NCBI RefSeq assembly: GCF_000621805.1
Contig: NZ_JHXH01000003.1
Location: 1 to 64,000, forward strand
Source of the DNA: Ruminococcus sp. FC2018
Lineage (GTDB): Bacteria; Bacillota; Clostridia; Oscillospirales; Ruminococcaceae
DNA length: 64,000 bases
Reading direction: 5' to 3'
Part shown: positions 4,499 through 22,774 of the stretch, one piece after another
Layout: each line of letters starts with the position of its first letter
Position numbering within the stretch: the stretch's first letter is position 1
Notes under the pieces: model-generated
Database searches by the model: none
The model's input: only the letters and a program-made list of their open reading frames with translations
What the model was told of the DNA's origin: nothing
Program-made: the position numbers and the translations under genes

Positions 4499-7393
4499 AT
4501 GAAAAAGCTGATAATTATCATCGCATCAGCCGTTGCTGTTGCGGTCGGTATAGGAACATTTTCATTCCTGCACAAAGGCTCGGATAAACCAGATAAAAAA
4601 GTTGAAGACATCGGAGAGATATATTGTGCTCCGATAGATGAGAGCCACATTGCCTCTTCAGGGAATGGAGTATATTATGCGGATAACGAAATACTGATTG
4701 TAGCTAAGCCGGATGTTACAAAGAAAGACATCAAAGAGCTTGCAGCGAATTATAATGCAGAGGTGGTAGGGTGTATAGAAAAAACAGGCGACTATCAGCT
4801 CAGGCTTGATAATGACGATCCGCAAAAGCTTGTAGATCTTATTACTAAAGAAACAATAATTGAATCTGCCTCGTTGAATTATATCGCAGAACTGGGCACG
4901 ACTAATGATAATAACGATATTAACACCGGAAATGAATGGATAGCTGATCCGGTAAAGGAAGCTTTTTCAAGTCTTGACATACGACGCTCAAGAGCATGGG
5001 GAGCTCAGGCAATAAATGCACCATATGCCTGGAAAGCCATGGATTTAATCAAAAGCAGGATAAAACCTGTAAAAGTCGGACTCGTAGATTGTGGTTTTGA
5101 CGAATCTCACAAGGATCTTAAATTTGCCAGAAACGGTGTCTTTTATAACAGCGAAGGACAGAACGGATATACCAAAGAAGATGTAAAAAAAAGACAATCG
5201 CCAGAACACGGAACTCATGTGGCCGGTATAATGGCTGCTGATTCAAAGGATAGTAATGGTATATGCGGCATTTATCCTTATGCAAGCGATAATCTTTATG
5301 GAGTTAATCTGGACAGCAAATATGCAGGCAATAATAACCACAGGTCGATTATGTTTCAGAAAATTGCTCTTGGAGAACTAATACTAAGAGATGTGAAAGT
5401 AATCAACGAATCATTGGGTTTCAATTATTATAAACAAGAAATATTCTTTATCGAAGGAACAGAAAAAACGAACTATCAATATCTGCATAGCTATATTTCC
5501 AATAATGATTTCAGCGATTTTGAGAACGAAGCTTCTGTTCTTGGAGATTTTTTAAGCAGGTTATTAGTTAAAGGATACGATTTTGTTTTAGTGAGTGCTG
5601 CCGGAAATGATTCAGACAGATCCATCGGACATCTTGAAAGCAAGTATTCCTCATGGCTGAATCTGATCTCAGCCGAAAAGCATAAAAATGTATATGATCG
5701 TATAATCGTTGTTGGCAATATGAATGAAAAATACAGAGCTGCCAATTCATCAAATGCCGGCAATCGTGTAGACGTTTTCGCACCCGGTGAAAAAATCTTT
5801 TCAACTTTACCTGATAATAAATACGGAGTCAAGTATGGTACATCAATGGCTTCGCCGCATATTGCAGGAATATGTGCTGACATATGGAGCATCAACAATG
5901 AACTGACCGGCGCTGAGGTAAAAAGCATTGTACTAAGATCTCATAAAGACGATAAACAGATTTACACCGCCCCGGATAAATCTTCTAAATATCTTGCGGA
6001 TGCAAGCATTGCTGTCTCTCTTGCATCTACCAGTCAGGCAAACCATAAGCAAAGCAGTCATAATGATTATGGTGCGATATACGGTTATGTTACTGATGCT
6101 TCAAACGGGACCGACCTTATTGCTATTCCTGATGTAGCGATAAGAATCTATAAAAGAAACGGAACAGATGAGATCAAGCTGTCAATAAACGAGCATAGTA
6201 ATACATCAGATGTAAATGGACATTTTGAACTGATACTTCCAGAAGGGGAATATATTATAAGAGCCGAAAAGGACCAGAAAATATCAGATGATCAGACGGT
6301 TAGTGTTAAAGCGGGAGAAATAAAATATGTTCAATGGCTTAATCTAAAAAGTCCTGGCAACAGTGATCCCGCAAAGCAGGATGAACTCAAAAAGAATATC
6401 GAAAAAATGAGTGGCGGAAAAATAGTTCTATGGGCAGAAGCTGACTATGACGGAGACGGCAAAACCGAGCTGTTTGTCGTGGTATCAAAAGGCGGAGAGA
6501 TACGTGATAAATCAAAGATATATAATTTGGATAGTATTTACTTCGTTAACTCGAAAGGTGAAATAAGCCAGGCAAAAAAGTTCAATGGGCTTGATTGTTA
6601 TTATGATGATTCCTATCAAAACACAATAGACGGTTTGAAATTCTTCAGCATATCGCTTCACGCCGGCACTTGGTCAACGACCGGGTATGTGTTCGGAGTA
6701 GACGCAGACAAATTCTTTGAGCCTTCCGTGTCAGGAAAATACAGCGGCTTTGATTTCACCAAAGAAGGAAAAGCATATGCTGTTGAACGGAAGATAAAAG
6801 ACGAAGGTGGTGGTCACATTCAGACCAATCACGAAATGACGTTTGATAAAGCTTCCAAAGAATTTATCATCTTATCGGATCGTGGGACAGATACAAAACA
6901 AGCAATCCTGCCGGAGGGTGTAGTTGAGTTCAGCGGACATTATTATATGGTCTTTTCAAACCCGGACAAATACGATGCCTACAAGAGTGAACAAGCTTGT
7001 GTGGAAATGGGCGGACATCTTGTATCTATCAACTCACAAAGCGAACAAGACTTCATTGTTGGTGTGCTCGGCTCAAAGGATAATTACTGGATCGGGCTTG
7101 AGAAGAAAAACAATAGCTGGCACTGGATCGACGGAAGTGATTTTTCTTATACACATTGGGATGTGTGGAAAAACTCAAAAGGCAAAGAATTCTGGCAGCC
7201 CGATAATTTAGAGAATCGGGAATACAACGCAAGAATTGCCGGCAAAAGTGTAACATATGAAGATTGGTATATGAACAAAGGAGGCTGGATCGATACCGAT
7301 GGAAGCGGCAAAGGTGAGGATCTTTCGACCTACGGATTTATTTGTGAATGGACAGACCATCCTGATGCTGAAAAGATAAAAAAATATAGCTGA
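4499..7393 (+). CDS. Membrane-anchored or secreted subtilisin-like protease with C-type-lectin domain
   Basis: The 964-residue product has an N-terminal hydrophobic anchor or signal (residues 4-24), a fervidolysin-like propeptide region (about 60-135), and an S8 peptidase domain (about 165-510). The visible triad is Asp197 (GLVDCGFD), His237 (EHGTHVAG) and Ser449 (GTSMASPH), with the oxyanion Asn370 in SAAGND. A carboxypeptidase-regulatory-like beta domain follows at 528-600, then a DGDG calcium-type motif near 650, and a C-type-lectin-like domain at about 805-955 with WIGL and the terminal FICEW. All catalytic residues are present. TTGGAGG precedes ATG 4499. It is the last gene of the locus; cleavage of the co-encoded lipoprotein or a peptide is a plausible but unproven role. 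Confidence 0.88.
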   Translation: MKKLIIIIASAVAVAVGIGTFSFLHKGSDKPDKKVEDIGEIYCAPIDESHIASSGNGVYYADNEILIVAKPDVTKKDIKELAANYNAEVVGCIEKTGDYQLRLDNDDPQKLVDLITKETIIESASLNYIAELGTTNDNNDINTGNEWIADPVKEAFSSLDIRRSRAWGAQAINAPYAWKAMDLIKSRIKPVKVGLVDCGFDESHKDLKFARNGVFYNSEGQNGYTKEDVKKRQSPEHGTHVAGIMAADSKDSNGICGIYPYASDNLYGVNLDSKYAGNNNHRSIMFQKIALGELILRDVKVINESLGFNYYKQEIFFIEGTEKTNYQYLHSYISNNDFSDFENEASVLGDFLSRLLVKGYDFVLVSAAGNDSDRSIGHLESKYSSWLNLISAEKHKNVYDRIIVVGNMNEKYRAANSSNAGNRVDVFAPGEKIFSTLPDNKYGVKYGTSMASPHIAGICADIWSINNELTGAEVKSIVLRSHKDDKQIYTAPDKSSKYLADASIAVSLASTSQANHKQSSHNDYGAIYGYVTDASNGTDLIAIPDVAIRIYKRNGTDEIKLSINEHSNTSDVNGHFELILPEGEYIIRAEKDQKISDDQTVSVKAGEIKYVQWLNLKSPGNSDPAKQDELKKNIEKMSGGKIVLWAEADYDGDGKTELFVVVSKGGEIRDKSKIYNLDSIYFVNSKGEISQAKKFNGLDCYYDDSYQNTIDGLKFFSISLHAGTWSTTGYVFGVDADKFFEPSVSGKYSGFDFTKEGKAYAVERKIKDEGGGHIQTNHEMTFDKASKEFIILSDRGTDTKQAILPEGVVEFSGHYYMVFSNPDKYDAYKSEQACVEMGGHLVSINSQSEQDFIVGVLGSKDNYWIGLEKKNNSWHWIDGSDFSYTHWDVWKNSKGKEFWQPDNLENREYNARIAGKSVTYEDWYMNKGGWIDTDGSGKGEDLSTYGFICEWTDHPDAEKIKKYS

Positions 7394-7520
7394 TACAATG
7401 ATCAGAGCCACGATTGGAATAGAACAAAAAAAGGGGCTGTTACAAGTAAGCAATAGTTCCTAATTGTAATCCGATTCCCCAGTCTTACTGAGAAAAAAAG
7501 CTTTAGCTATGAATTGAATA

Positions 7521-7720
7521 AAAAGAGCTCGCAAACACGCTGTTTGCGAGCTCTTCATTTATAACCAGGACTTGAAGCGCTGCCGCTTGCCAAAATCCAC
7601 GCATCTGAGGTGTTTCTTTGCCCGCTCCTGCGGCGATTCTGTCACAAGGGGCTATGTCATAATATAGCGTAATATCATGCAGTATCTTGCCGAAATAAAG
7701 ACCAAACAAAGACCAAGGTT
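7521..7720. repeat. Attachment-site-like repeat R2
   Basis: Direct repeat of 327-528, with near-identical sequence over most of 200 bp. It holds a 12-bp stem hairpin (7525-7536 / 7542-7553), the ggacttgaag core (7568-7577; the neighbouring gcggcaaacgg part of R1 is missing) and paired aaagaccaa motifs at 7697 and 7708. It separates the protease locus from the TIR locus. The rest of 7394-7894 contains no gene that I can support. Confidence 0.6.
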
Positions 7721-7774
7721 TGCAATGTGTGAGGCTCAAAGAGGAAAATCCAAACAACCGAACAGAATAGAACA

Positions 7775-7808
7775 AAGCTCCCTTGCGAATCAAACCGCAG
7801 GGGAGCTT
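7775..7808. terminator. Hairpin downstream of the DUF2971-like gene
   Basis: The arms aagctccc (7775-7782) and gggagctt (7801-7808) form an 8-bp stem. On the minus strand it lies about 85 bp beyond the stop of the gene at 7895 and is followed by a T-rich stretch, so it probably ends the minus-strand transcription unit. Confidence 0.5.
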
Positions 7809-7894: not shown

Positions 7895-8746
7895 TTAATC
7901 TAACTTCATGTCTATCTCGCCTTTGTACATACTTAATTGTACCTTTGAGGTATCAAAGATATGAGAATAAATATGTTTGAATTTCTTTATCTCTTCATCT
8001 TTATAATCAACGATGTTCGGAGCAAGATTAATCGAGATGTTCTTTTTGAGTTTATCATTAAAAGCTATTACTACCTTATAATCATTTTTAGGATTATTTT
8101 TAATTATTTTTTTAGCTTCATTTTCAAGATGTATCACTAATCTGCTTTCTTTCTCATAATACCAAATCAATCCTTTGACAAAATGCTTGAACTCTCTCTT
8201 CAATTCTTCAAATTCACTATTACTAATATGATAGTTTGTCATAGTATTATACTTTAGTGCGATATTACTCTGTTCTTGATGACAATATAGTACATCTTTG
8301 AAACTATAGGTAAAGGTTTTATTGGGGAGCAGTGTTATTGGTTCTCCTACAAGAGCTTTACCATTACTTTCATATAGTAAATATGTACTTTCTTCTATTA
8401 GCTTTTTTACCATTTGGGATGTAAACCTTATCCTCCCCCCTTTTCCATCTTTTCCACTGTAAAGATACCATAACGGAAGATTCTCATGTACGCCAGTAGA
8501 GAAACAAAGTGTGTAGTATTCTCGTTGCTGTTCCACATTGCCAAACTGTTTTTTGTCAGTTTTATCATTAACACCCTTTACACACGATGCCCAGATTTGA
8601 TTCTTTTCTAATATTGAATCAATCACACAAAGCTTTGTATAATGATAATAATTACTATGATCATACTCTCTTTGCATATAGTTAGCTAATTCTTTTACTG
8701 AACATAAACTGCCAAATTGATTCCATTTAAACCTTGAATTGCTCAT
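7895..8746 (-). CDS. DUF2971-like protein
   Basis: The 283-residue soluble protein has the pattern typical of DUF2971: an N-terminal YHYTKL..IDSILEKNQIWAS, an ND motif (GVNDKTDKKQF), the central LPLWYLYSG..GGRIRF segment, and a later YEKESRLVI element. DUF2971 proteins are of unknown biochemical function and are often found in defence islands and mobile regions. ATG 8746 has AGGAGGG directly upstream and is preferred over an upstream ATG at 8770. It is 71 bp downstream of the TIR/DUF6273 gene on the same strand, with a palindrome (8781-8804) between them, so it may be read through or separately controlled. Confidence 0.6.
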   Translation of the reverse strand: MSNSRFKWNQFGSLCSVKELANYMQREYDHSNYYHYTKLCVIDSILEKNQIWASCVKGVNDKTDKKQFGNVEQQREYYTLCFSTGVHENLPLWYLYSGKDGKGGRIRFTSQMVKKLIEESTYLLYESNGKALVGEPITLLPNKTFTYSFKDVLYCHQEQSNIALKYNTMTNYHISNSEFEELKREFKHFVKGLIWYYEKESRLVIHLENEAKKIIKNNPKNDYKVVIAFNDKLKKNISINLAPNIVDYKDEEIKKFKHIYSHIFDTSKVQLSMYKGEIDMKLD

Positions 8747-8780
8747 TTTCCCTCCTGTTTGCTCCTTCAATAATGCTCAT

Positions 8781-8817: not shown

Positions 8818-11763
8818 CTATTTCAGATTTATCCACAAAGCGGGACGGACAGCACCACGATCGTTGTGGACATAGCTACCGCCGTTTATGACGGAGGCGC
8901 CGCTGTTAACACAAGCAGCGTAGTTAGAATTACTGCCTGGCGACCGCAGCCACCACCAGCAGTTACCATTTCCGGCTTTATATGCGCCTTCTGCATAACA
9001 GTATGCAGTGCCTTGACACTGCCTACTGTTCGAACTGAAGTATTTATTCACTTCTGTGATGCTGAGAAGGAACACATTATCTGTTGTGTTATTTCCGGGT
9101 GAAGTGTTGTATGACGGGTTCTTAGCAGCTGTAACGGTGGATTTTATTATCATTTTCTGATGATCCGAACCGAATGCCGTGTTATAGAATGTTCCATTCA
9201 GCCAAGTTCTTAACGTGCACTTTTCCCAAGTAGTATCTGTATATGTGCTGTTGAACCTTAGGCATTCCAACGCATATTGACTTATAACGAGTGCTTTGTT
9301 TCCTTCTACTGCAAGTACCTTCCACTCAATTTCTTCTTTGCCGTTTGAGGTATTGTTGTCTTGCTCGTAGAAGCCAAACTTGATTGTTGAACCAACAGAA
9401 ATGTTTGTCAAACCTGGTTTCTGTTTCAAAAACAAACAAGAAGCAGCTTTTTCAGCGCTATCTTTATAGCCATCCAATACAGTGTACGCCGTGATCGCCT
9501 CGTCGTACTTCCCAGAGTTGTATAGATTGAGTGCAGTGTTGTATTTGCCATCATTGATAGCTGTTTTACATTTTGCAATCTGAATTGTACTGTCTTTATA
9601 TCCGTTCAACGCATTAAATGCCGTGATCGCCTCGTCGTACTTCCCAGAGTTGTATAGATTGAGTGCAGTATTGTATTTGCCATCATTGATAGCTGTTTTA
9701 CATTTTGCAATCTGAATTGTACTGTCTTTATATCCGTCTAATTCTTCAAAAGCCTCAATTGCTTCATCATAGTTTCCATTTTCACTAAATGCAACAGCTT
9801 TTCTGAATTTAGCCTCTATGATCATCTCCTCAGAATACTTGTAATCCTTCATCTTTTCAAAGGCTTCAACTGCTTCATCATATTTGCCGTCATCGAGTAA
9901 CTTCTTTGCATCATTGTATTTCATTAATGGTAGAATAACTGTTACAAATACAATCACAACTGCCGCTACCGCTACAACAGAACCCGAAACAATGGCAGTG
10001 ATCTTCTTCTTTTTCTTCCTCGCTCTTGCTTGTGCAGCTTTTTCTTTTTCCAGATAATCTTCTATTTCCGATATCTTGTCCTCGCAGTTCTTTATCTGCT
10101 CCTTTGAATCCTTAAAATCGCCAAGAGCTTTTAGATCTTTGATCGAATTCTCGAGTAACTTTATATCAGATTCGCTGTAACTGTCCTTATCCTTTATTGC
10201 TTTTAATGCATTGTCGTATATACCTTGTTTCTTTTCCTGCGTAACTTTTTCAATGAATGCTTTTGCTTTGTTGCGGCATTGTTCCGCTTTTTTCTCGCTG
10301 TCATGGTAACCGCCCAGTGACTCATACAGCTTTGCCGCTTGTGTGAAAGAATCATTATTCACGGCGATCTTCATTATTTCTTCTGCCTGTGAGTAGATAA
10401 TACTCTTGCGTTTTTCTTCACAGTCTTCTGCTTTTTTCTGTGCATCGGAGTATTCGCCGAGCCACTCAAAGATCTCTTTAGCCGCAATGCAGTCTTTAGT
10501 TGTTTTTGCCTCACTCAGCACATAGGATGCGTGGTTATATCTACTCTGCAGATAATAGCCATACAGCCTGTTCTTTACTTCTTCTCCGCCAAAGCGGCAA
10601 GCCTTTTGATAGTATTCCGACTGTGTGAAATCATCATTCACCTGAACCAACATCTGCTCGTTTGCTATGCCGTATTCAGCGCACAAAAAACCTATGTAAG
10701 CCCTGTGCTCCTCAACATCTTCGTTGAGCACCTGGTCAAAGTAACCTTTGGCATCGTTCCACTTTCCGTCCTCCAGCGCAATGTTACCACGCTTTAAAAG
10801 GTTTTCAACATTACCGCTTGATGACTTGATTACAGTTTTGGTTTCTGCTTTACTTTCAGAAGTCTTTTCTTTTGAAAGCACCTTTCTTATTCCACGGATA
10901 ACATCATTGATAAAACCGATCTTGCTCATATCCTGCGCCTGAAGATGTGCAAACTCCTCCGGTAGATCGTATGCGTCCATATCCTTGTAGCAAGGGATCA
11001 GCAGCTTTGACCTATCATTCTTCATCAGCTTGAGGTATCTGCTCCACTCATTCTTAACCCAGACAGCGTTGAAATATTCAGGATCTGAGCCGATAACAAG
11101 CATTACTTTTGCCGAGTTAAGTGCAGCAAAAATATATGGCTCATATTCCTGTCCGAGTTTGTCCTCAAGGGTTATCGCTGCATAAAAGACCTTAAATCCC
11201 TCCTGCGTCAGCTGATAGTAAATATCATTTGCAATAACACTGTCAGATGTACGCTTGCCGTTTTCGTCTGTTTCCTTGTAACAGATAAACACATCAAAGG
11301 GTTTTTCTTTATGTACTATCTCAAGAATATTCTTTTGAAGCTTGTCAATTTCTGCGGCTTCTTTTTCAAACAGTTCTTTCTGTCCGGCATCGGCATTTTC
11401 AATGGCAGAAAGATAATCCACATCCGATACAACAGACTCATACTGTGTTCTGTGGCAGGTCGGTATTTTTTTGAGTGTTGTAGGGTCTTCAACATACTCT
11501 ATACCGTATTTGCACAGAACGATACCCCAGTAGGCTTCAGCCTCTGTTGGATTTGCAGAAACTATCTTTTCATAAAGCTCCTGTGCCTTATCGAACTCAT
11601 TTTTCATACGAAGGTTGTTGGCACGGTTGAAGTTATTGGTGAGCACATCATCGTGACTTTTCGGAATCGTCTGCTTAGTTCCGCAATACTCGCACTCACA
11701 GACGGTCATACCCTCTGTTACTTCCAGCGAACCTCCGCACATTTTACACTTGAATACTGCCAT
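8818..11763 (-). CDS. Zinc-ribbon/TIR/TPR protein with membrane segment and DUF6273 domain
   Basis: The 981-residue product has a Cys4 zinc ribbon (residues 6-27), a TPR-like stretch, a TIR domain (about 155-295, starting FDVFICYKE), and SEL1/TPR-like helices to 580. A lysine cluster and a single transmembrane helix (588-614) follow, then tandem TPR-like repeats (620-775) and a C-terminal DUF6273 domain (790-981) with WWWLRSPG and RPALWINL. Glu239 in VWVKNEW aligns with the catalytic Glu of NADase TIR domains (SARM1 family), so NAD cleavage is possible. It is the last gene of the operon from 16188, 5 bp after the small membrane protein gene. TIR would be cytosolic and DUF6273 outside. Confidence 0.85.
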   Translation of the reverse strand: MAVFKCKMCGGSLEVTEGMTVCECEYCGTKQTIPKSHDDVLTNNFNRANNLRMKNEFDKAQELYEKIVSANPTEAEAYWGIVLCKYGIEYVEDPTTLKKIPTCHRTQYESVVSDVDYLSAIENADAGQKELFEKEAAEIDKLQKNILEIVHKEKPFDVFICYKETDENGKRTSDSVIANDIYYQLTQEGFKVFYAAITLEDKLGQEYEPYIFAALNSAKVMLVIGSDPEYFNAVWVKNEWSRYLKLMKNDRSKLLIPCYKDMDAYDLPEEFAHLQAQDMSKIGFINDVIRGIRKVLSKEKTSESKAETKTVIKSSSGNVENLLKRGNIALEDGKWNDAKGYFDQVLNEDVEEHRAYIGFLCAEYGIANEQMLVQVNDDFTQSEYYQKACRFGGEEVKNRLYGYYLQSRYNHASYVLSEAKTTKDCIAAKEIFEWLGEYSDAQKKAEDCEEKRKSIIYSQAEEIMKIAVNNDSFTQAAKLYESLGGYHDSEKKAEQCRNKAKAFIEKVTQEKKQGIYDNALKAIKDKDSYSESDIKLLENSIKDLKALGDFKDSKEQIKNCEDKISEIEDYLEKEKAAQARARKKKKKITAIVSGSVVAVAAVVIVFVTVILPLMKYNDAKKLLDDGKYDEAVEAFEKMKDYKYSEEMIIEAKFRKAVAFSENGNYDEAIEAFEELDGYKDSTIQIAKCKTAINDGKYNTALNLYNSGKYDEAITAFNALNGYKDSTIQIAKCKTAINDGKYNTALNLYNSGKYDEAITAYTVLDGYKDSAEKAASCLFLKQKPGLTNISVGSTIKFGFYEQDNNTSNGKEEIEWKVLAVEGNKALVISQYALECLRFNSTYTDTTWEKCTLRTWLNGTFYNTAFGSDHQKMIIKSTVTAAKNPSYNTSPGNNTTDNVFLLSITEVNKYFSSNSRQCQGTAYCYAEGAYKAGNGNCWWWLRSPGSNSNYAACVNSGASVINGGSYVHNDRGAVRPALWINLK
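9488..9751. repeat. Two near-identical 132-bp tandem repeats inside the TIR/DUF6273 gene
   Basis: The unit beginning gccgtgatcgcctcgtcg recurs exactly 132 bp later (9488 and 9620) and encodes a 44-residue TPR-like unit (GYKDSTIQIAKCKTAINDGK and onward). The two units are almost identical at DNA level, including synonymous sites, which points to a recent in-frame duplication or ongoing repeat-number variation. Confidence 0.85.
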
Positions 11764-11768
11764 AATTC

Positions 11769-12461
11769 TTATCCTCTCTTATTCATTTTGCATGCTGCAT
11801 TTCTGTCATCAAGTGCTATCTGCACGTTTCTGCACATATCAATAGCTCGTGAGTCACTATTTATAACTGCCGATTCAAGCTGTGTCAAAGCCGATACAAG
11901 CCTTTGCTCTTCAACAGCTATCGCAGCGCTGCTTACAGGATCGCTGTACTGAATGTTCTCAGCAAGCCTTTCAAGTTCTTTTTTCAGTGCAGGATCATTT
12001 GTCCTGTTTACAAGCTGTGAACTGCGTGTACGCAGACTCACCATAAGGTTTGTATCTGCCTTTGTGGTCTGTTCTATTTTCTGAACTGTCTGTCTTGCTA
12101 TGTCAGCTGTGATGCTGCACACAAGCATTATGCCTAAAACAAGAACACATACAACAGCGGTTATCCATGCAGGAACAGGGATCCAGCCCATAGAGAAAAA
12201 CATCACACTGAGTATTGTCTGAATAATGAGGTATGTATAACCGACACGAGCGATCGGGAAGCCTAAAAACTTACTTTTCAGGTCATCAGCTCCGCCGAAA
12301 GCAACTTTGAAAATAGGCACTTGCAGTGCTATAGCAATGATCTCGGCAACGTATGCTATCCAGAACGATGCGTTTTTCGGGAACGGAACGGCAAAAGCCA
12401 CTACGGAGAACATTACGGCAATAACAACTAAAACGATTACAGCTTTATTACTCTTGCTCAT
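11769..12461 (-). CDS. Small integral membrane protein of the TIR operon
   Basis: The 230-residue product has about four hydrophobic helices in residues 5-125 and a soluble, helical C-terminal half rich in charged residues, ending DRNAACKMNKRG. I do not recognise the family. ATG 12461 is 7 bp after GGAG and is preferred over an in-frame ATG 6 bp upstream, which is too close to the ribosome site. It lies 2 bp after the SPFH gene stop and 5 bp before the second TIR gene, so it is translationally linked to both and is probably part of the same membrane assembly. Confidence 0.7.
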   Translation of the reverse strand: MSKSNKAVIVLVVIAVMFSVVAFAVPFPKNASFWIAYVAEIIAIALQVPIFKVAFGGADDLKSKFLGFPIARVGYTYLIIQTILSVMFFSMGWIPVPAWITAVVCVLVLGIMLVCSITADIARQTVQKIEQTTKADTNLMVSLRTRSSQLVNRTNDPALKKELERLAENIQYSDPVSSAAIAVEEQRLVSALTQLESAVINSDSRAIDMCRNVQIALDDRNAACKMNKRG

Positions 12462-12463
12462 AT

Positions 12464-14308
12464 TCATTCTCCTTTCTTGTGACCACAATCCGGACAGAAT
12501 CCACTTGTTATATCTTTATGTCCGCAGTTCGGACAATCCCACTTTTCAGGCTCTGAAGGCTTTGCGTTACCGCAGTCAGGGCAGAACTTAGATGTTATGT
12601 TTTGCGCTCCGCAGTTAGGACAAGTCCAGCCGATTGGCTGTTCCGGGCGCTTTGATCCACAGTTCGGACAGAATTTTGAGGTTATATCTTTTGTTCCGCA
12701 CTCAGCACAATCCCAGCTATTGTTTGTAGCAGGCTCTGGTTTCGGTTTTCCGCAATCAGGGCAGAATTTAGTTGTGATATTCCTGTGCCCGCACTCGCAA
12801 TCCCAGCCGTTTGCAGTAGGATTGATAGTATCTCCGATAGCTTGTCCTGCACCTTGTGCATTAGCGGCAACAGGATTAAGCGCCTCTCTTGTCATACCCA
12901 TAACGCTTCCCATAGCTCCGAGTGTAACACCAAGACCTGCGATATCACCTATACCGCTGCCTGCACCGCCGCCGCTGCCGATATTTTCCATAGCAGCAAG
13001 ACCGACCTGACGAGCAGTTTCCTGTTGGTATGTATAGCCCTTCATGCGCATCTCGGCAGCCTCTGCTTCAGCCTTGAGCTTGTATGCTTCTGCTTCGCCC
13101 TGAGCACCGATGACTTTCATTCTTGCGGCAGTTGCAGCCTCAACAGCCTGACGCTCAGCGCTTGCCTCAGCCTCAGCTTTGAGCACCTGTTCTTCACGCA
13201 CCTTGAGGTACATATCCGCATGCTGCTGCTTGAGCCTCTGGAAATTTGGATCATCGTCCGGGGTGACAATGTTTGTAACGAAGAACTCCGGCATGAGCAG
13301 ACCATACTCAACCAGGTTCTCATTGATAACATCACAAAGTGTTGTCGAGATCTCGTCGAGGTGCTCATCTACCTCGAGTATATTTATATTCTTTTCTTTG
13401 ATGACACGGGCAAGATTGCTCTTGACCTTGGTCATTATCATCGCACGGAACTTTGCAATAGTCGGTTTCATTCCGTAGCTGCCATCAATTACATCTGCCT
13501 GAGTGAATTCACTTGCAGTGCCGACAAGTTTGATGAGCAGCTTTCGTGAATCGCTGACTTTCAGGTTAAACTGACCGCTTGCACCTATCTCAATGGGAAG
13601 GCCTGAAACCGTATCAAAAAATCTTATCTTGCTGTCTGTTCCCCATTTGATACCCATCTGCACAGTCTTGTTAATAAAGTAGACTTCACTGTGGAATGGT
13701 GTATCAACATTTGTCGGGAACTTATACAGGTTTTCAAGCAGCGGCAGATTCTGCGTTGCAAGGGTATATCTGCCCGCACCGAACAGATCAAGAGCCTGTC
13801 CGTCACGAAAGAACACAGCCTCCTGAGACTCGTGAACAATAAGCTGTGAGCCGAGGTTGAAATCTTCGATCGGGTGCTTCCAGACAAAAGTCTGATTGTC
13901 GCCCTCGTACTTGATAACACTGGCAAGGCCTTTTTTCTTTTCGGTCTCTTTAGCGACCTGCTTCTGAACATCAATCACAGTGTCGCACAGCGGGCAGGTG
14001 TAGCTTTTGGCATTCTTGTCTGCTGAAAGATTGCACGAACAGCTCGGACAGTGGAAGTTCACAAGGTTCGCAAGCTGATCCATCGTGTTTATCTTATTGT
14101 GGCAGACAGGGCACAGCGCCTTATCACCTTTTGCCTGGTCAAACACGACCATATTGCCGCAATGGGGGCAGGCACGGGAACTCATTCTGTCCGCACGGAC
14201 ATCTATCACATTTCCGCAGGAGCAGTTGATGTGCTTTTTAGCAAAGATAAAGTTTGATGCCTCTGCATAATTACCGCACTGCGGACACTCTATAACAAAT
14301 TTTGACAT
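12464..14308 (-). CDS. SPFH/Band-7 protein with multiple zinc ribbons (YdjI-like)
   Basis: The 614-residue product starts with a series of zinc ribbons (CPQCGNY, CPHCGNM, CPVCHNK, CPSCSCN, CPLCDT; about residues 7-125). An SPFH/Band-7 domain follows (about 135-360), then an Ala/Glu-rich coiled coil with VIGAQGEAEAYKLKAEAEA, a Gly-rich linker, and four further zinc ribbons (CGHRNITTKFCPDCG type) to the end. SPFH proteins form large membrane-associated rings. B. subtilis YdjI has the same SPFH-plus-ribbon design and localises partner proteins to membranes under envelope stress. ATG 14308 is 9 bp after GGAG; a TTG at 14317 is the alternative. It sits between two TIR genes, suggesting a scaffold for TIR proteins. 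Confidence 0.88.
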   Translation of the reverse strand: MSKFVIECPQCGNYAEASNFIFAKKHINCSCGNVIDVRADRMSSRACPHCGNMVVFDQAKGDKALCPVCHNKINTMDQLANLVNFHCPSCSCNLSADKNAKSYTCPLCDTVIDVQKQVAKETEKKKGLASVIKYEGDNQTFVWKHPIEDFNLGSQLIVHESQEAVFFRDGQALDLFGAGRYTLATQNLPLLENLYKFPTNVDTPFHSEVYFINKTVQMGIKWGTDSKIRFFDTVSGLPIEIGASGQFNLKVSDSRKLLIKLVGTASEFTQADVIDGSYGMKPTIAKFRAMIMTKVKSNLARVIKEKNINILEVDEHLDEISTTLCDVINENLVEYGLLMPEFFVTNIVTPDDDPNFQRLKQQHADMYLKVREEQVLKAEAEASAERQAVEAATAARMKVIGAQGEAEAYKLKAEAEAAEMRMKGYTYQQETARQVGLAAMENIGSGGGAGSGIGDIAGLGVTLGAMGSVMGMTREALNPVAANAQGAGQAIGDTINPTANGWDCECGHRNITTKFCPDCGKPKPEPATNNSWDCAECGTKDITSKFCPNCGSKRPEQPIGWTCPNCGAQNITSKFCPDCGNAKPSEPEKWDCPNCGHKDITSGFCPDCGHKKGE

Positions 14309-14343
14309 TTGTTTCAACTCCGTTCTATTTTATAATCTAGGTG

Positions 14344-16188
14344 TCAAAAAAGTTTTTCTTTCAGCAGATCGCTGGCGGTTTTGTGTATGTATTGAAGCTT
14401 GCTCCCAAGCTCTGTATATTCTTGGTCTAAAGCCTTTTTTAATTTGCCTGAGAACACACCTAAATTTTTAAGCTGTTTAGATATCTCTTTTCTCCTATTA
14501 CTAATTTTGCCTCTTTCATCTTCGAGTTCTTTATATTTATTTATCCTGTCTTCAATTATATCAGCCTTAGCTTGACTGTCCTTATATGCTCCAAGTGATC
14601 TAAACATTTTAGCAGCAGATTTCAAATTATCAGGATCACTGTATTTTGTTTTTTCAATAGCTTCAGCATAAACTGTTCCGTTCTTGATCTCTAATGCTTT
14701 AGCTTGAATATCGGTACTCTTTTCTGCACTGTCCTTATAGCCGCTAATTTTAGCAAATAGACTGGCAGCATGTGCTAAAGACGAATCGTTATTAGCATCC
14801 CGCAAAGCCTGTTCAGCTCTTTGGTATATGCATTCATTGGCACATTCTCTGCATTTTTCGATCATTTCCTTGCAGTCTCTGTAATCCGGTGTTCTTTCAA
14901 ATAGAGCGGCTGCAGCTTCAAAATCCTTGTTGGTTGTTGAGCGTTCATATACCTGCATAGCCTCATTATACATAGAATCAAGATTATAAGTCTCCATTTT
15001 TTTCTTGTTATTATCGTCAGCAAATCTGATAGCTCTTCTATAGTTCTCGTTCTGTGAAAAATCCTTTTTGGCTGATGGAAGCTCAGTCTCAAAATGTATG
15101 TTCAGGGCTGCACAGAGTTTACCAACGTAAGCTCTGTATTCCTCAACATCTTCATTAAGTACCTGCTCATAAAAATCTGTTGCAGCGCTCCAATCTCCGT
15201 CCTCCAATGCGAGTGCACCCCGCTTCAGAAGATTCTCAATGTTTGAATTTGTGGGCTTAGATGCTTCTGCTGGGGCTGAAACACTTTTTACCGGTTGATC
15301 ATTTGCTATTTTTCCGATACCTCTGATCAGATCCTGCATAAACCCGAGTTTGGACATATCCTGTGCCTGGAACATAGAAAGCGCATCAGGCAGGTCGTAA
15401 GGATCCATATCCTTGTAGGCAGGGATAAGTGTCCTGCTTCTGTCCTCCTGCATTAACATAAGGTATCTGCTCCACTCGTTGCGTACCCAGACAGCGTTGA
15501 AGTACTCAGGCTTTGTGCCTACAACTACCATTACCTTTGCTGAATTTAAGGCAGCAAAAATGTAGGGCTCGTACTCTGTTCCGAGCTTTGATTCAAGCGT
15601 TATTCTTGAGAAGAATACTTTGAAGCCTTCCTTTACAAGTCCATAGTAAAGGTCCTGTGCCAGTACACTGTCCGGCGTTCTTCTGCCCATATCATCGGTC
15701 TCTTTGTAACAGATGAACACATCAAAAGGCTTTTCCTTGTTTGATATTTCAAGTATGCCTTTCTGAACTTTGTCTATGTACTCAGCTTCCTGCTTGTACA
15801 CCTCTTTCTGCACGCTGTCTGCATGTGAAAGAGCCTCAAGGTAATCGGCGTCCTCAAGAATAGATTTATATTGTGTACGGTGACAGGTAGGTATCTTTTT
15901 CTTTGTAAGCGGATCATCAACATATTCTATACCGTAACGGCACAGAACAATAGACCAGTAAAGCTCAGCGTCATCTCTCTGTGCTGTCATTCTTTCATAT
16001 ATCTCAGCAGCCTTGTCAAACTCACACTGCTGACGGAAGTGGTTAGCTCTGTTGAACATATTGAGAGCCTGCTCATTATCCGTCTTTGGCAGAGTCTGCT
16101 TAGTTCCGCAATACTCGCACTCACAGACGGTCATACCCTCTGTTACTTCCAATGAGCCTCCACACATCTTACACTTAAATACTGCCAT
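14344..16188 (-). CDS. Zinc-ribbon/TIR/TPR protein (first gene of operon)
   Basis: The 614-residue product is a paralogue of the 8818-11763 protein: the same N-terminal zinc ribbon (residues 6-27), a TPR-like linker, a TIR domain at about 154-294, and helical repeats to the end. It has no membrane helix and no DUF6273. The putative NADase Glu is Glu238 in VWVRNEW. ATG 16188 has GGAGG 8 bp upstream and is preferred over an upstream ATG at 16212, because it matches the paralogue start. A consensus promoter lies at 16238-16266. Role inferred: cytosolic TIR effector or signalling partner of the SPFH scaffold. Confidence 0.85.
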   Translation of the reverse strand: MAVFKCKMCGGSLEVTEGMTVCECEYCGTKQTLPKTDNEQALNMFNRANHFRQQCEFDKAAEIYERMTAQRDDAELYWSIVLCRYGIEYVDDPLTKKKIPTCHRTQYKSILEDADYLEALSHADSVQKEVYKQEAEYIDKVQKGILEISNKEKPFDVFICYKETDDMGRRTPDSVLAQDLYYGLVKEGFKVFFSRITLESKLGTEYEPYIFAALNSAKVMVVVGTKPEYFNAVWVRNEWSRYLMLMQEDRSRTLIPAYKDMDPYDLPDALSMFQAQDMSKLGFMQDLIRGIGKIANDQPVKSVSAPAEASKPTNSNIENLLKRGALALEDGDWSAATDFYEQVLNEDVEEYRAYVGKLCAALNIHFETELPSAKKDFSQNENYRRAIRFADDNNKKKMETYNLDSMYNEAMQVYERSTTNKDFEAAAALFERTPDYRDCKEMIEKCRECANECIYQRAEQALRDANNDSSLAHAASLFAKISGYKDSAEKSTDIQAKALEIKNGTVYAEAIEKTKYSDPDNLKSAAKMFRSLGAYKDSQAKADIIEDRINKYKELEDERGKISNRRKEISKQLKNLGVFSGKLKKALDQEYTELGSKLQYIHKTASDLLKEKLF

Positions 16189-22535: not shown

Positions 22536-22774
22536 AAATAAAGACCAAACAAAGACCAAAACACACTTTTGGACAAAAATAAAGCCCGCAAACGCCGTGT
22601 TTGCGAGCTTTTCTTTTATGCGGCAAACGGGACTTGAACGATGGCAAGGTGCTGCACCGTTCACTGCCGGTCTGTGCTGATCTCAGCTGTTGCGCCGATT
22701 TTGACACCATCAATTCACGCAGTTTCAAGTGATCTCAAGCAGCCTTTGTCAGAAATAAGGTCCAAATAAGGTCC
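22536..22774. repeat. Attachment-site-like repeat R3
   Basis: Paired aaagaccaa motifs (22540, 22551; 11 bp apart) precede a hairpin (22587-22605, cgcaaac / gtttgcg), the tRNA-3'-end-like core at 22618-22639 and, 120 bp on, a second pair, aaggtcc at 22757 and 22768, again 11 bp apart. Having arm-like pairs on both sides of the core fits a junction between two elements. It lies between the integrase and the transport island. Confidence 0.6.

Follow-up and report, generated by a model that had tools for sequence, protein, structure and literature searches.

A predicted membrane-spanning TIR protein with a putative lectin-like DUF6273 head in Ruminococcus sp. FC2018

The protein encoded at positions 8818-11763 (minus strand; 981 aa, ATG start) of the window, a 64,000-nucleotide stretch of a Ruminococcus sp. 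FC2018 contig, is read here with moderate confidence as a single-pass receptor of Toll-like logic: a TIR domain within the cell, a lectin head outside, a platform of SPFH and four-transmembrane (4-TM) proteins, an NADase output and a binding face that is sometimes rewritten by diversity-generating retroelements (DGRs). Its relatives are best read as a family of TIR receptors whose ectodomains are interchangeable and, in some cases, diversified by DGRs.

From the amino terminus the protein consists of a zinc ribbon with cysteines C6, C9, C24 and C27 (residues 1-33, positions 11665-11763), a short TPR, the TIR domain (residues 158-281, positions 10921-11292), helical repeats predicted to be cytosolic (317-573, 10045-10815), an Arg/Lys cluster (580-587, 10003-10026), a single membrane helix (about 588-611, 9931-10002), TPRs predicted to lie outside (619-785, 9409-9909) and DUF6273 (about 790-981, 8821-9396), all on the minus strand. 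An earlier note on this DNA had proposed the order zinc ribbon, TIR, TPR, lysine cluster, one helix, TPR and DUF6273, which Pfam and hydropathy bear out, with two refinements: the TPR between the zinc ribbon and the TIR is additional, and residues 317-573 form a long helix run in the AlphaFold2 model, little of which is called TPR by Pfam. TIR_2 (PF13676) matches residues 158-281 at 44.4 bits (curated cut-off 28), DUF6273 (PF19789) matches 822-979 at E 7.2e-31, and TPR models match at 45-73 and within about 619-763; the four zinc-ribbon cysteines are kept in 117/117 aligned relatives. The one hydrophobic segment reaches a 19-residue Kyte-Doolittle mean of 3.05 at 596-614, with RARKKKKK immediately before it. 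The outside TPRs contain a 132-nt tandem duplication, 92% identical (repeat family D11; 9458-9721, minus strand). The full-length model has a mean pLDDT of 85.1 and leaves the domain arrangement unsettled, as its pTM is only 0.37; Foldseek searches with it returned mostly TPR proteins at TM-scores near 0.1, 9qa6 being the exception. Among the matches listed, the order zinc ribbon, TPR, TIR, helices, membrane helix and DUF6273 recurs in 29 of 115 relatives that have the full core, which speaks against a chance arrangement.

The TIR site is strictly conserved: Y207-E208-P209, W235 and N238-E239-W240 are invariant in 117/117 sequences. Glu208 (11140-11142, minus strand) is presumably the catalytic glutamate of an NADase, an assignment we make by its SARM1-type motif position. 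In a profile alignment to the plant L6 TIR, the L6 glutamate, which we also take to be catalytic, falls at column 206, a variable column two before 208. The site suggests that the TIR would have an NADase output. Likeness to Toll-like receptors in sequence is confined to the TIR, the best PDB match having an E value of 4e-5.

On which sides of the membrane do the two ends lie? Lysine and arginine are more abundant in the 15 residues that precede the helix than behind it in 62/62 single-helix relatives (mean 6.6 vs 1.8); in one relative (L065) a cell-wall-type domain, an M23 peptidase, stands behind the helix, as does a BspA-type LRR region with List_Bact repeats in another (L030). These observations back the earlier proposal of an intracellular TIR joined to an outside DUF6273, and the predicted N-in/C-out topology, with a cytosolic TIR and an extracytoplasmic C-terminal part, is thereby supported. 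Counted with near-duplicate loci retained (e.g. L050/L052), the 115 full-core proteins comprise 33 with one helix and no DUF6273 match, 29 with one helix and a match, 24 with neither, 10 with a match and no helix, 15 with two helices and four with three. Ten of the 39 full-core relatives that match DUF6273 thus have no helix, so the domain exists inside cells too. This gives some ground for the notion that DUF6273 is cytosolic in the window protein as well, the hydrophobic stretch not being inserted and the protein acting as a sensor inside the cell in the manner of its relatives without a helix, which carry the same kind of variable face where scored. The hydropathy maximum of 3.05 and the charge bias in 62/62 relatives speak against it, and we regard it as very improbable.

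A scan of genome contigs gave at least 79 homologous loci. Most belong to Clostridia MAGs, and one, L010, comes from the isolate record of Ruminococcus flavefaciens YAD2003. Viral contigs yielded one locus. The 115 full-core proteins (zinc ribbon, TPR and TIR) among the matches listed leave out relatives with a partial core and four loci in which the scan had found the window itself. Of 394 sampled genomes of the window's order, 32 contain the core (25 of 315 good genomes). The nearest core relative in that sample, L159, is 82% identical in the core; no DUF6273 motif was seen in it, and its DNA aligns over the first 884 nt and two pieces of about 50 nt.

The part behind the helix is exchangeable. 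Removal of 10 short or multi-helix C-terminal ends from 68 left the window and 58 relatives, and among these 59 segments DUF6273 occurs in 32 and RCC1 in eight. One relative (L030, 2643-6404) has List_Bact repeats and a BspA-type LRR region after the helix and is literally a TIR-helix-LRR protein. Soluble relatives carry DUF6273, RCC1 or LRR heads too; such heads need not be outside, and it seems that one set of heads serves the family on both sides of the membrane, as in TLRs and NLRs. Other domain combinations were observed as well. L065:8001-9644 is a short TIR-TM-M23 peptidase protein, in which a TIR is joined to a cell-wall enzyme. The first TIR gene of L050 and L052 encodes a soluble zinc ribbon-TIR protein with a ferredoxin-type-looking cysteine cluster at its end. 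The genome of locus L009 encodes a zinc ribbon-TM-DUF6273 protein with no TIR (L119:510-1622), in which this sensor is joined to nothing but a zinc ribbon.

Structure prediction, suggested in the earlier note, returned a lectin-fold model of DUF6273 with a pLDDT of 97.4. Its best structural match is the N-terminal domain of 9qa6 (Z 17.4 over 163 residues); further matches are TvpA (2y3c, Z 7.5), mammalian lectin-like receptors (Z up to 5.7) and Mtd (Z 5.4), Z values under 8 being weak if taken alone. The domain thus models as a C-type-lectin fold. Matches to the model in BFVD are phage DUF6273 proteins. According to the available text of the reports concerned, DUF6273 has a lectin fold and is a DGR target in gut phages (PMC10743442, PMC11792537), and it stands at the start of a secreted cell-wall-type protease (PMC12402451).

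Within the head, residues 944-971 (8851-8934, minus strand) form a hypervariable face at the place occupied by the DGR variable repeat in relatives. The window protein and that of L055 are identical at 14 of 28 face residues vs 137 of 154 in the rest of the domain. The face is also distinct in its codons. Comparison of 37 well-covered DUF6273 domains, less one duplicate and one double-domain protein, gives codons ending in C or T (NNY) at 901/1131 face positions in 36 domains vs 2531/4988 upstream; the window has 28/31. Is this merely a consequence of variability or of amino acid choice? The bias holds on both counts: in variable columns NNY codons make up 610/742 in the face vs 684/1437 in equally variable columns elsewhere in the domain, and for residues that have both codon kinds the figures are 275/346 vs 381/752. 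The exceptions, L010, L020 and L025, have faces that are not NNY-rich, and L020 and L025 are alike both in the face (22/25) and elsewhere (136/151). The codon pattern looks like that of copies from an AAY-rich DGR template.

DGR-type reverse transcriptases (RTs) are present in 6 of 68 related genomes (three found among 25 genomes by RVT_1, three among 45 by similarity to the RT of contig L117), and two of them are tied to a TIR gene, one with no readable variable repeat. Contig L117, from the L009 genome, carries an RT with the SQ-motif sequence LGNQTSQ and a template, which encodes CWWWLRSPGNNTNNAANVNNDGDINNNGNNVNNSNDCVRPDL and lies 180 nt upstream of the RT start codon. This template matches the end of a TIR-TM-DUF6273 gene (L009:8001-10682) over 127 nt with no gaps; of the 17 mismatches, 16 fall at the 38 template adenines and one at the 89 other positions (Fisher p 3.8e-9). 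Template and target lie on separate contigs of one MAG. The pair has the features that define a DGR, an SQ-motif RT and a template and variable repeat that differ at adenines. The second case, L021 (UBA1740), has a complete avd-template-RT cassette directly behind the TIR gene, in the order SPFH, 4-TM, TIR-TM-DUF6273, avd (5954-6343), template (6391-6516) and RT (6714-7799). The avd gene matches bAvd at E 5.6e-9 and DivGenRetAVD at E 7.7e-14, both under the curated cut-offs, and the variable repeat reads as N. Locus L059 has three TIR-DUF6273 genes, one with the helix and two without, which differ from the L021 template at 6, 6 and 9 of 92 non-adenines and at 21, 18 and 19 of 34 adenines; a search of the L059 genome yielded no RT. 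The window face differs from the same template at 20/92 non-adenines and 18/34 adenines: it shares the style but not the template.

Several other candidates were set aside. L119 was rejected as a target of the L117 template on account of many non-adenine differences, and the DGRs of three genomes (G003, L118; G065, L131; G027, L132) have their template and variable repeat pairs in non-TIR genes. For G006 (L113), 2.5 kb of sequence showed no template. RTs at E 1e-60 or better occur in 9 of 394 genomes of the window's order, with no TIR open frame found by motif in the seven of these nine RT regions that were examined, and among 395 sampled genomes of the L021 family there was no second close RT.

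The window's own genome is 2.4 Mb in 32 contigs and 99.57% complete. DNA searches of these contigs, using stretches of 283 and 143 nt from the variable region, gave no DGR template; they returned the region itself and matches of 14-24 nt at E 1.9 or above. The genome's only RT (L091:12481-13668) lies on the window's own contig, about 12.5 kb past the end of the window, and is of PADLOC type UG26. It was rejected as a DGR-type RT by its AGVPVSA and YSDD motifs and its UG26 match (E 9.4e-162), and no template was found in the 18 kb around it. RTs 35-42% identical to it over nearly the full length occur in 7 of 25 related genomes, and one more is partial.

The lectin model, the swapping of the outer part and the DGR diversification in relatives give substance to the earlier description of the outer part as sensor-like. 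Might the protein instead be a surface adhesin, whose lectin-like head holds host, food or neighbour glycans while the TIR reports attachment or serves as an anchor? The lectin fold suits such a role, and most cellular DGR target clusters are described, in the available text of one paper, as membrane-anchored binding proteins (PMC8144416). The large conserved cytosolic zinc ribbon-TPR-TIR part, and the replacement of the head by RCC1 or LRR while the inside part stays the same, do not, and we consider an adhesin quite improbable.

The gene has close neighbours on the same strand. In order they are a soluble zinc ribbon-TIR-helical paralogue (14344-16188; 614 aa, no TM), an SPFH protein with a Band_7_1 match and zinc ribbons (12464-14317; 617 aa, no TM), the 4-TM partner (11769-12488; 239 aa), the TM-TIR gene itself and a DUF2971 gene (7895-8770), all on the minus strand and separated by 26, -25, 5 and 47 nt; the DUF2971 gene, 47 nt downstream of the TIR gene, is an uncertain member of the unit, and its relatives occur in 2 of the at least 79 loci (L022, L058). 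SPFH relatives are found in 54 of the loci, 4-TM relatives in 49 and both in 47; all 47 shared loci have the two on the strand of the TIR gene, and in 44 of them the pair is no more than 111 nt apart. No SPFH relative was found in 25 of the at least 79 loci. Many loci are cut by contig ends. Profile matches in the window's genome number two for TIR_2 (both in the cluster), one for DUF6273 and two for Band_7_1. The Pfam matches of the five cluster proteins include no NTPase of STAND or MoxR type; no PADLOC model matched these proteins, and Thoeris models score far below cut-off (ThcB4, 21 and 24.2 bits vs 220). Beside the cluster, at 4499-7393 on the plus strand, lies a gene for a subtilase that looks secreted and ends in another lectin fold, a C-type lectin domain (Lectin_C, E 1.7e-14), and related intergenic repeats of 62-155 nt (families D7 and D13) are found at 325-527, 7520-7717 and 22577-22638.

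The zinc ribbon may dock to the SPFH platform; the platform idea arises because YdjI of Bacillus subtilis is a zinc-finger SPFH protein that needs membrane partners. The likeness to YdjI opens a different prospect, an envelope-stress sensor of PspA/YdjGHI type in which the SPFH, 4-TM and zinc ribbon-TM proteins watch the membrane or wall, with the TIR serving as scaffold or regulator and not as a defence enzyme. YdjI has no TM, bears a C-terminal zinc finger and requires YdjG and YdjH, as far as the available text tells (PMC8581546), and the 617-aa protein shares the Band_7_1 match, the C-terminal zinc ribbon and the lack of a TM; PF13421 occurs in the window's genome as it does in B. subtilis, and the outside M23 peptidase of one relative would also fit. 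An invariant TIR site and a hypervariable face would be unexpected in a housekeeping stress sensor, and such a role is unlikely.

A receptor of Toll-like logic could function as follows. The zinc ribbon and TPRs would dock the cytosolic TIR to the SPFH/4-TM membrane platform, and the outside TPR stalk would present the C-type-lectin head, whose variable face may bind a ligand from outside, be it a phage, a competitor or a component of the envelope. This would cluster TIR domains, both its own and those of the soluble paralogue, and the clustered TIRs might then act on NAD+ so that the cell is stopped or killed or a signal is made. In some lineages a DGR would rewrite the binding face; the window copy bears the signature, and no DGR was found in its genome. 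We infer an external ligand for DUF6273, and an immune role is suggested by the combination of TIR, DGR and exchangeable heads. A bolder proposal, which we put forward tentatively and hold at somewhat less than even, is that Clostridia of animal guts have a hypervariable transmembrane TIR receptor with a dedicated DGR, exchangeable heads and an SPFH platform, a counterpart of antigen receptors with a TIR death or alarm output.

For most of the bacterial TIR defence proteins described, sensing takes place within the cell. A receptor for outside threats with, in some lineages, a deliberately hypermutated lectin head would, if true, join TIR immunity, DGRs and SPFH platforms; the existence of Toll-like outside sensing in bacteria becomes testable, and DUF6273 can be given a probable function, as the head by which cellular proteins bind. 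In two related bacteria the outer tip of a protein of this kind is paired with a DGR, and in this it resembles a primitive antigen receptor. The accessible parts of two reports (PMC7517822, PMC7159879) describe DGRs in signalling proteins of cyanobacteria and in conflict systems. No description of a receptor with TIR inside and lectin outside, or of a TIR-SPFH cluster, was found in the available text of the open-licence literature.

How does the protein compare with known systems? The following comparisons draw on the available text of the papers cited. The conflict-system sensors of multicellular bacteria (Dore et al. 2024, PMC10907252) are similar in that a DGR-varied C-type lectin is joined to effectors that include TIR. 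The TIR-bearing target of Thiohalocapsa (DGR 2), however, is described as cytoplasmic (PMC10907252), whereas here TIR and lectin flank one helix, and those systems use STAND or MoxR NTPases (PMC10907252), whereas the window cluster has no NTPase by Pfam. DGR targets of Faecalibacterium phages share DUF6273, the lectin fold and a C-terminal variable repeat, but they are receptor-binding proteins, and TIR and SPFH go unmentioned in the text available (PMC10743442, PMC11792537). The PspA-YdjGHI system of B. subtilis has a zinc-finger SPFH protein with no TM adjoining membrane proteins; YdjI depends on YdjG and YdjH when it gathers PspA at the membrane, and a ydjG primer reads MIISYKCPNC, possibly a zinc-ribbon start, but the partner of that system is PspA and not a TIR protein (PMC8581546). 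Animal Toll-like receptors offer the broadest likeness, with one helix, a TIR inside and a ligand-type domain outside, which in L030 is even an LRR. They are N-out and C-in with an LRR ectodomain, whereas the window protein is predicted to be N-in by the K/R bias, carries TPRs and DUF6273, and has in addition the zinc ribbon, further TPRs and the SPFH/4-TM cluster.
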